Shown: positions 6,918-8,951 of the stretch, one piece after another
Layout: every line of letters starts with the position of its first letter
Position numbering within the stretch: position 1 is the first letter of the stretch
Assembly (NCBI GenBank): GCA_009379915.1
Contig: WHSV01000032.1
Location: forward strand, 1-33,954
Direction of reading: 5' to 3'
DNA from: Actinomycetota bacterium
GTDB lineage: Bacteria > Actinomycetota > CADDZG01 > WHSQ01
Length of the DNA: 33,954 bases
The notes under the pieces: generated by a model
What the model saw: the letters and a program-made list of their open reading frames with translations, nothing else
What the model was told of the DNA's origin: nothing
Databases searched by the model: none
Translations under genes and position numbers: made by a program

Positions 6918-7307
6918 TCACACCTCGTAGGTGGTGATCTCGATCAGGTGCCCGTCCGGATCGTGAAAGTAGATGGAGTGAGCGATGCCATGGTCGTTGA
7001 AGCTGTACCGGATGTCCCGAGCGTCGAGATCCTCTTTGGCGGCATCGAAGTTCCGCCTGTCTGCCCCGAAGGCCACGTGCCACATGGCGAGCCCCCCCGG
7101 ATGACCCTGGGGAGGCGGTGGATCCGAGCTTTCCGCAGGGAACAGAGCAAGGCCGGTCGACCCACTAGTGAGAAACGCAGGGTTCCGTCCCCACTCCTCC
7201 TCGTGGACGTGTTCCAGGCCGAGAACATCTCGGTACCACTCGATGGAACGGCTGACGTCGGCCACGGTGAGAGCCACGTGGTCGAGACGCTCGAGATCGA
7301 ACGGCAT
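6918..7307 (-). CDS. VOC (glyoxalase/bleomycin-resistance) superfamily protein
   Basis: A 129-residue vicinal-oxygen-chelate protein. It has the paired beta-alpha-beta-beta-beta layout with likely metal ligands at LDHVALTV (His), MWHVAFG (His) and HLIEITTYE (Glu). The stretch FHDPDGHLIEI is a hallmark of the family. The ATG at 7307 has an excellent AAGGAG site six bases upstream, which fixes the start. The reaction cannot be assigned; relatives include dioxygenases, glyoxalases and drug-binding proteins. An insertion sequence ends about 16 bases upstream of the ATG, so the native promoter has been displaced. With the element removed, the gene would follow the copper ATPase by about 40 bases. 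Confidence 0.85.
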   Translation of the reverse strand: MPFDLERLDHVALTVADVSRSIEWYRDVLGLEHVHEEEWGRNPAFLTSGSTGLALFPAESSDPPPPQGHPGGLAMWHVAFGADRRNFDAAKEDLDARDIRYSFNDHGIAHSIYFHDPDGHLIEITTYEV

Positions 7308-7323
7308 GGTTCTCCTTATCTGT

Positions 7324-7335
7324 AGAGGGACCCCC
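7324..7335. repeat. Left inverted repeat of the IS element
   Basis: AGAGGGACCCCC is an exact reverse complement of the sequence at 8918-8929. It lies at the transposase 3' side of the element, immediately beside a pair of hairpins. Confidence 0.8.
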
Positions 7336-7371
7336 CGGTCAACAACCGGGAACCCGTGTCTTGAACGGGTT
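7334..7371. other. Two adjacent perfect hairpins inside the IS end
   Basis: Hairpin one is CCCGGT, loop CAACA, ACCGGG (7334-7350). Hairpin two follows with no gap: AACCCGT, loop GTCTTGA, ACGGGTT (7351-7371). Both stems pair without mismatch. They could fold in the element RNA, mark the recombining end in single-stranded DNA, or stop transcription into or out of the element. Confidence 0.65.
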
Positions 7372-7774
7372 TGTTCTTGAAGTGTTTTGTTTCCCCTCGT
7401 AGCCACCATCCGCGACGACCCGCAGCCGGGGTCAAGCTGGAGCGCCCGGAGCGCAGCGAGGACGAACGAGCTTTGGCGCCGGCGAGGACCGTCGCACACT
7501 GGGGCGTTGGGGGAAAGGGTGTTACGCGATCGACACCACCTCCCGACGAGCTGTCAGGGAGACGTCGTCGCGCGCGCGGTCGCCCAGCCTTATCTCGGTG
7601 CTCGGAGCATGCTCCGGCGACATGATGAGTGATGGGGTGGACCCCGGGTGAAACGTTGCGGCCGCTCGGTCTTTCAAGGACGTCCACGGACGAGTCGTGG
7701 CGACAGGAGAATTGCGGGAGCCGGCCGCAAAGAACATCGGCATGATGTGGGACACGTCGCGCGCGGCGGCCATC
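7372..7774 (-). ncRNA. Non-coding 3' segment of the IS element, candidate seek/bridge RNA region
   Basis: About 400 bases between the transposase stop and the element end have no credible gene. They are rich in local symmetry: CGGAGCATGCTCCG (7603-7616), GGGGT-GG-ACCCC (7634-7645), CGTCC-AC-GGACG (7681-7692) and GACCC...GGGTC (about 7417-7433). In IS1111-group elements a guide RNA that pairs with target and donor is encoded 3' of the transposase on the same strand. I cannot set its ends or guide loops by eye, so the whole segment is given. Confidence 0.4.
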
Positions 7775-8845
7775 TCAGGCGGCGACCTCGACGCGTCCGG
7801 TGGACGCGGTAGCTGGGTCGATGTCGACCTCAACCGGCTGGAGCGCGGCGACGCCAAGTTCCTTGAGGATGTGGTGAGCTCGCCGGCACAGCTTGCGGGC
7901 GATCGCGAGGCACGCTCTGTTGTGGTCGATGCGATCTCTGGTCTCGAGGTAGTACGCGTGGTCCGGCGACGTCCTGCGGGCCCCGCTTTGGGCCGCTTCG
8001 TAGAGCGCCCAGCGCAGCACTTCGGGGCCTTGGCGCGACAGGTGCCCGGGCGGGCGCTTGCCGTTGGACTCGTAGACGGTGATGTCGGGGCCCGAGTAGC
8101 GAACCGCATCATCGGAGTTCGAAAAACGGCGGCAATCTCCGAGCTCGGCGAGGATCGTGGCGCTGGTGAGGTGCCCGACGCCGAACAGGCCCATGAGGGC
8201 GCGACAGCCCGGTTGAGCCTTGGCAAAGGAGATGAGGTGGGCATCGAGCGGGAACATCTGCAGGTCGCAGGCGTCGAGCATCGCGATGCCGACGGTGATG
8301 AGCTGGCGACCGGCCGAGGACAGCTCTGCTTCCGCGAGGCGCGCCCGGCCCTTCGCAGTGCTCAGCCCGCTGCCGGGCGCAATGCCCTGGTGGTAGAGCT
8401 GCGCCTGGACGCGCTGCTGCCACACCCGCCGCTCGTCGAGCAGGGCCTTGCGCAGGCGCACCCGGGCGCGCAGCTCGAGGATGTGCTCGGGCGGTATCCA
8501 CGACTCCGGCACGCGCCCCTGGAGCAGCAGGTCGACCATGAGGTCGCAGTCCTTGTCGTCGGTCTTGGCACGCCGCTTCGGTCCCCGCCGGAGGCTCGTC
8601 TCGGCGGGCTCAGCGAGATGCGGGGTCACGCCGATCCGCTGCATCTCCTCGACCACGAAGCGCCACCCGGTCGTCGCCTCGAGCACGACGTGGGCATCGC
8701 GGCCCTCGAACTGGCTCAACCACTCGCGCACCGCAGCACGCGCCGCCGGCATGATGCGGCCGCGCTTGATCTCTCCGGTGCTCAGGTCTTGCCACTTGAA
8801 AGTGATCTGTCTCCGGTGCAGGTCCATCGCGCCTACGATCTCCAT
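7775..8845 (-). CDS. IS110-family transposase (DEDD)
   Basis: A 356-residue transposase/recombinase. The N-terminal RuvC-like DEDD domain shows D8 (GAMDLHRR), E56 (VLEATTGW) and the TDDKDCDLMVDLL segment around residues 95-107. A helical region spans about 120-200. The C-terminal Transposase_20 domain runs from about 216 (LMGLFGVGHLTSATI), with the conserved serine S270 in GHLSRQGPEVLRWAL. All expected catalytic positions are present and the frame is open, so the enzyme is probably functional. The ATG at 8845 has a GAGGAGG site six bases upstream. Known IS110-family enzymes act with an element-encoded RNA that specifies the target. Confidence 0.93.
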   Translation of the reverse strand: MEIVGAMDLHRRQITFKWQDLSTGEIKRGRIMPAARAAVREWLSQFEGRDAHVVLEATTGWRFVVEEMQRIGVTPHLAEPAETSLRRGPKRRAKTDDKDCDLMVDLLLQGRVPESWIPPEHILELRARVRLRKALLDERRVWQQRVQAQLYHQGIAPGSGLSTAKGRARLAEAELSSAGRQLITVGIAMLDACDLQMFPLDAHLISFAKAQPGCRALMGLFGVGHLTSATILAELGDCRRFSNSDDAVRYSGPDITVYESNGKRPPGHLSRQGPEVLRWALYEAAQSGARRTSPDHAYYLETRDRIDHNRACLAIARKLCRRAHHILKELGVAALQPVEVDIDPATASTGRVEVAA

Positions 8846-8917
8846 GAGGGGCCTCCTCGAGCTCCTAAAACTCTTGTGCCTTAGAGCACGTTTGCGTGGT
8901 TAACACGCTTGTGCCGA

Positions 8918-8929
8918 GGGGGTCCCTCT
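8918..8929. repeat. Right inverted repeat of the IS element
   Basis: GGGGGTCCCTCT is the exact reverse complement of 7324-7335. It lies on the transposase 5' side, 22 bases beyond the stop codon of the copper ATPase. Confidence 0.8.
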
Positions 8930-8951
8930 TCATGTCATCTTTCGCTGGTAC

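Follow-up and report, generated by a model that had tools for sequence, protein, structure and literature searches.

An actinobacterial IS1111-type insertion sequence with a predicted four-guide RNA

The window examined here, a stretch of 33,954 nucleotides from an actinobacterial genome, carries an insertion sequence that we read, with a probability of about 0.93, as an IS1111-type RNA-guided element whose RNA would hold a target loop and a donor loop with two guides in each. Its placement in the IS1111 type draws on its layout, its repeats, and the order of its guides. Comparison with related elements shows a conserved RNA fold, to guides that match the flanks and ends of the element that encodes them, to junctions and empty sites in two relatives, and to natural retargeting through a change of guide. 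RNA-guided IS1111 elements were already described in 2024 (PMC11187229, PMC11208160), so it is the RNA and its target that are new, and not the kind of element. An earlier note on this DNA had suggested an undescribed RNA-guided recombinase with its own target specificity; the specificity stands, as it can be read from the guides, while the claim to an undescribed kind does not.

The element, its limits, and its insertion site

A contig scan of genomes yielded 15 loci at 48–69% identity, whole-genome searches gave two further loci, and plasmids supplied three Rhodococcus copies at 53–54%; the viral contigs that were searched held no relatives. The comparison set comprises 18 related elements (48–69% protein identity), or 19 sequences with the window copy, and the nearest relative, L025, shares 69% of its amino acids with the window transposase. 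There is one copy of the element in the source genome, which is 95%-complete. A scan of 397 genomes for the right-end pattern gave mostly single chance hits, except in G000, G003, G063, and G317. Both ends of contig C113 of G000 (L045, 50-78, and L046, 1501-1529) carry right ends of another such element of the same genome; these represent two insertions, their right flanks both start AAG-GGGCGA, and the contig breaks within the element.

The element of the window and its surroundings are laid out as follows.

7318-8941, minus strand: whole element, 1624 bp with one AAG core counted
8939-8941, minus strand: AAG core, left copy, placed from the empty sites of relatives
8930-8938, minus strand: left terminal extension ATGACATGA, whose ATGA is the partner of the right donor guide
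8918-8929, minus strand: left sub-terminal inverted repeat AGAGGGACCCCC, exact 12 bp
7324-7335, minus strand: right sub-terminal inverted repeat GGGGGTCCCTCT, exact 12 bp
7318-7323, minus strand: right terminal extension ACAGAT, whose AGAT is the partner of the left donor guide
7315-7317, minus strand: AAG core, right copy, placed from the empty sites of relatives
8942-8945, minus strand: left target flank GCGA
7308-7314, minus strand: right target flank GAGAACC; core and flank together give AAGGAG, a Shine–Dalgarno site

Read on the minus strand, the window copy begins with AAG-ATGACATG at its left end and closes with CACAGAT at its right. Nearly all loci share these ends, with (A)AAG-ATGNCATG on the left and TTGAC...CAGAT-AAG or CAAGT-AAG on the right. 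The exact 12-bp inverted repeats by which the earlier note had bounded the element are present at both ends, and they are not due to chance, because the repeats and junction sequences recur in L025, at a different locus. The limits drawn from them (7324-8929) were slightly short, as the element extends past the repeats on both sides. When the repeat is taken from TG, the extensions beyond it are 6 and 3 bp, plus a 3-bp core that can be assigned to either side; counted from the exact 12-bp repeat alone, they are longer. The IS1111 family is marked by sub-terminal repeats of about 11–13 bp and by extensions of 7 (or 6) bp on the left and 3 bp on the right.

The position of the core comes from two Rhodococcus relatives. 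The occupied site of L057 reads CGTTCGA-AAG-ATGACATG ... CACAGAT-AAG-GAACCTC, and the matching site without an insertion, on plasmid pDK3 of strain DK176, reads CGTTCGA-AAG-GAACCTC. The empty site of L058, in pRHL1, is CACCCGA-AAG-GATCCATG, which begins CACCCGA-AAG-GATCC. Together they identify AAG as the stretch common to the target and the joined ends, and with this core the window element extends over 7318-8941. GAT, considered as a duplicated target, was dropped, as the empty sites put the core at AAG. Because the window copy's own empty site was not found, its junctions rest on these relatives; its pre-insertion site would have read CAGCGA-AAG-GAGAACCATG.

The insertion adjoins a glyoxalase-like gene (Pfam Glyoxalase) with its ATG at 7307, and AAGGAG still stands beside that ATG after insertion. 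The target was probably GA-AAG-GAGAA, in the Shine–Dalgarno region of this gene. A general preference for Shine–Dalgarno sites was considered and dropped, as the targets of other members include AAGC among others.

The transposase

7775-8845, minus strand: transposase/recombinase gene, an intact ORF of 356 amino acids with D8, E56, D96, D99, and the catalytic serine S260

The protein matches both Pfam IS110 domains (DEDD RuvC-like and Transposase_20) above cut-off, and with NCBIfam NF033542, an equivalog model for RNA-guided IS110 transposases whose cut-off is 140 bits, it scores 174. This agrees with the family named in the earlier note, as does the distribution of non-coding DNA, with about 440 nt downstream of the gene and about 85 nt upstream, for the IS1111-type layout proposed there. 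The catalytic residues listed there required some revision. Across 17 homologues, D8, E56, D96, and D99 never change, while D97 varies; the serine is S260, which corresponds in alignment to the catalytic S241 of IS621 and is invariant in the same 17, and not S270, which is A or T in several homologues. In place of the C-terminal IS1111 signature GL-P----S(T)G, the clade has GLD and then SD, and the window copy GPD and then SN.

These last differences bear on whether the window copy can still move. Its S260 is followed by N, and its residue 253 is P, where the homologues compared all have D at the first position and L or I at the second; as a single copy in its genome, it could be an element of the right type that is no longer mobile. 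We consider such a loss rather unlikely, as the ORF is intact, the catalytic residues are all present, the repeats are intact, and the guides still fit the flanks.

A conserved RNA domain 3' of the gene

7561-7731, minus strand: predicted bridge RNA (seekRNA) domain of about 170 nt, conserved in the aligned non-coding regions and carrying guides in two loops
7718-7728, minus strand: basal stem 5' arm GCGGCCGGCTC, which encloses the target loop; the helix is 100% paired in 19 sequences
7658-7667, minus strand: basal stem 3' arm GAGCGGCCGC, of the same helix

An RNA encoded in the 3' segment had been anticipated before relatives were compared, and the homologues share a fold there with compensatory changes. 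The basal stem reads GCGGCC-R-GCTC / GAGC-GGCCGC across relatives. In a stated structure of 28 pairs, 92.2% of cells pair in the 19 sequences, compared with 32–47% when the structure is slid, although the percentage paired is biased upward, as the sequences could be seen when the structure was written by hand. The double changes are not due to that bias alone: 23 cells have changed on both sides, against a shuffled mean of 8.5, and the covariation score is 0.141, against a shuffled mean of 0.067, with none of 500 shuffles as high.

A thermodynamic fold of the single sequence was no better than shuffles (z = -0.87) and is uninformative, so the structure is visible in comparison only. Run on a MAFFT alignment, RNAalifold recovered hardly more than the basal stem, and the other stems appear only via the hand-written structure. 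Rfam, searched at gathering and relaxed thresholds, returned nothing relevant. A covariance model detects the domain in the window and at one further locus, L080, which lay outside its training set and at which the left donor guide agrees with the right flank. L080 (G317:C93, 1470-1950, minus strand) is a right-hand remnant fused to the end of an amine oxidase-like gene, with the transposase gene and the right target guide lost.

Four proposed guides and their matches

7705-7711, minus strand: right target guide (RTG) TTCTCCT, complementary to AGGAGAA
7671-7675, minus strand: left target guide (LTG) GAAAG, identical to the target GA-AAG
7624-7628, minus strand: right donor guide (RDG) TCATC, complementary to G-ATGA of the left end
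7588-7595, minus strand: left donor guide (LDG) AGATAAG, followed by a single G (7588) that covaries with the first right-target base

The loop closed by the basal stem carries the RTG on its 5' strand and the LTG on its 3' strand. In the second loop, the RDG reads N'CATC across loci, complementary to the left-end ATGN, and the LDG reads AGATAAG or AAGTAAG, which is the right end plus the core. From 5' to 3', the RTG precedes the LTG and the RDG precedes the LDG, so that the top-strand guide lies 5' of the bottom-strand guide. GATAAGG was at one point taken as a target guide and was dropped: the empty sites assign GAT to the element, which makes GATAAGG the donor guide plus one target base.

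The earlier note had also proposed comparing loop sequences with insertion flanks, and here the RTG gives a clear answer. It matches its own right target at positions +1 to +5 in 19, 17, 18, 17, and 16 of the 19 loci, or 87/95 positions. Own pairs match on average at 4.9 of 6 bases and other pairs at 2.1, and none of 200,000 permutations gave as good a total. When every window across the non-coding region was scanned without anchoring, the RTG position came out on top (z = 6.6; next best 3.9). Covariation between RNA and flank is noisy column by column with 18 sequences, but the five-column diagonal test is clear. The RTG of L030 matches at 4/6 only. In genome G063, four right junctions all read AAGG(G/A)GC, as the RTG GATGCTCCT predicts with G-U pairing.

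The AAG core and the A before it are nearly constant across the clade, as they might be if the transposase protein read A-AAG and picked the target itself, with the RNA incidental. Target positions +1 to +5, however, vary widely and track the RTG of the same element. Moreover, the Rhodococcus elements L057 and L058 are 94% identical over matched stretches, yet they have different targets that fit different RTGs: GGTTCCT at AGGAACC in L057 and GGATCCT at AGGATCC in L058. This comparison contradicts a protein-only account, to which we attach almost no credence, and the retargeted pair is also the best counter to the objection that the matches reflect shared ancestry. Target choice through the RTG is the reading that we retain.

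The other guides are short and were named after inspecting the alignments, and the loci throughout share ancestry and are not independent. Base -2 of the LTG matches in 13/14, and the variable base of the RDG pairs in 13/14, in three states (A-U, G-C, and U-A). The first two bases of the LDG (GA or AG) match in 19/19, and the base after it (LDG+1) matches the first right-target base in 17/19. Mismatches fall at the LTG in L029 and L042, at the RDG in L034, and at LDG+1 in L034 and L032.

Whether the second loop pairs with the element ends at all is a fair question, given that an 82-nt RNA with two matches was reported as sufficient for ISEc11 (PMC11187229). If there were two guides only, as in the seekRNA model, the resemblance of the donor loop to the ends would be common inheritance and not pairing; the donor-loop matches are indeed short and have few states, and GA or AG in the LDG may track phylogeny. 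We nonetheless think this improbable. All three states of the RDG variable base pair, the LDG agrees at every locus, LDG+1 tracks a target base of G or C even between the near relatives L028 and L033, and the layout is that of the IS621 donor loop with the guide order reversed. Four guides, two of them for the donor, thus remain the preferred assignment.

Predicted circle junction and working model

7337-7342, minus strand: -35-like TTGACC, 18 bp from the TAAGAT formed at the joined ends in the predicted circle

Circularisation would join the ends as CACAGAT-AAG-ATGACATG, and the joined ends would form a promoter consisting of TTGACC, 18 bp, and TAAGAT. In the integrated copy, the right end is without this -10 hexamer. 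Of the 19 loci, 18 would place a TTGAC-like box 16–18 bp from TAAGAT once their ends are joined, the hexamer being CAAGAT in L029. Circle-junction promoters have been reported for the IS1111 family, and the window junction is consistent with them (PMC11187229).

From such a circle, the promoter would drive the transposase gene and also the RNA that follows. The target loop of the RNA would offer the RTG 5'-TTCTCCT and the LTG 5'-GAAAG, and its donor loop the RDG 5'-TCATC and the LDG 5'-AGATAAG. Together with the DEDD/serine recombinase, the RNA would bridge the circle junction and the chromosomal GA-AAG-GAGAA site, and strand exchange would occur at the common AAG. The fold and the guide matches were read from sequence comparison; transcription, circle formation, and activity are inferred, as is the empty site of the window copy.

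A second conserved hairpin

7419-7489, minus strand: second conserved hairpin, separate from the guide RNA, with the near-invariant apex CGTTCGTCCTCGCTkCGCTGCGGGCGCTCC

The stem of this hairpin covaries, with 16 cells changed on both sides against a shuffled mean of 3.5. It is missing from the nearest relative, L025, and so is not essential to this element type. It also occurs in other clades, 3' of their IS110-type transposase genes (L003, L006, L103, and L109), in an ISL3-family element with at least 10 copies in genome G161, and in intergenic actinobacterial plasmid DNA, at 50 places in 35 plasmid records; the loci at which the hairpin family was seen include, besides L003 and L006, L101-L105, L108, L110, and L124. 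None was found in phages, and no Rfam family matched at gathering and relaxed thresholds. As a guess, it may act as a terminator or 3' end element. It is possible, and we suggest it only tentatively, that the hairpin is a functional module (e.g., a terminator or host-factor site) that unrelated mobile elements have repeatedly recruited, or that it is itself mobile.

Two of its settings deserve description. L007 (1494-1559, minus strand) has the hairpin just upstream of an ArdC-like antirestriction gene, and no IS110 transposase was found near it. L003 (G000:C123, 131-1636) is a decayed element, IS110-type but from another clade, and its ends differ; it adjoins sequence resembling the end of a tRNA gene, and the second hairpin is present.

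Discussion

The analysis provides a complete four-guide assignment for an actinobacterial IS1111-type clade, together with empty sites and a natural retargeted pair. It bears on whether the RNAs of IS1111 elements carry target guides only, as in a seekRNA, or donor guides too, as in a bridge RNA, and it would add a recombinase with a readable, apparently programmable target rule, A-AAG-NNNNN.

Known elements close to that of the window lie on the Rhodococcus plasmids pRHL2 and pDK3, and their transposases (WP_011599898.1 and WP_016881807.1) belong to the same clade at 53–54% amino acid identity. These elements have the same RNA fold, ends, AAG core, and second hairpin, but differ in target guides and targets. 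In the pRHL2 copy (L057, 3082-3370), the donor loop is duplicated by a tandem repeat of about 107 nt.

Among characterized elements, the IS1111 seekRNA elements ISEc11, ISPa11, and ISKpn4 (Siddiquee et al. 2024, PMC11187229) likewise have a DEDD transposase, sub-terminal repeats of about 12 bp, a long 3' non-coding region, a top-strand guide that comes first, and a promoter expected at the circle junction. The window element differs from them in its targets and in having four guides, spread over two loops, where those elements have two. Its extensions beyond the repeats sum to 12, with the repeat taken from TG, against 10 in IS1111, and the serine is followed by N or D in its clade, against G in IS1111 (PMC11187229).

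The IS621 bridge RNA of the IS110 group (Durrant et al., PMC11208160; Hiraizumi et al., PMC11208158) shares with the window RNA the division into a target loop and a donor loop, with left and right guides in both loops that take in the common core, and its S241 is the residue aligned with S260. As a base whose partner lies in the target and not in the donor, LDG+1 is similar to the IS621 handshake guide (PMC11208158) and may be its counterpart. In contrast to IS621, the window element has its RNA 3' of the gene, the order of guides within each loop reversed, long sub-terminal repeats, and AAG, not CT, as the common stretch.
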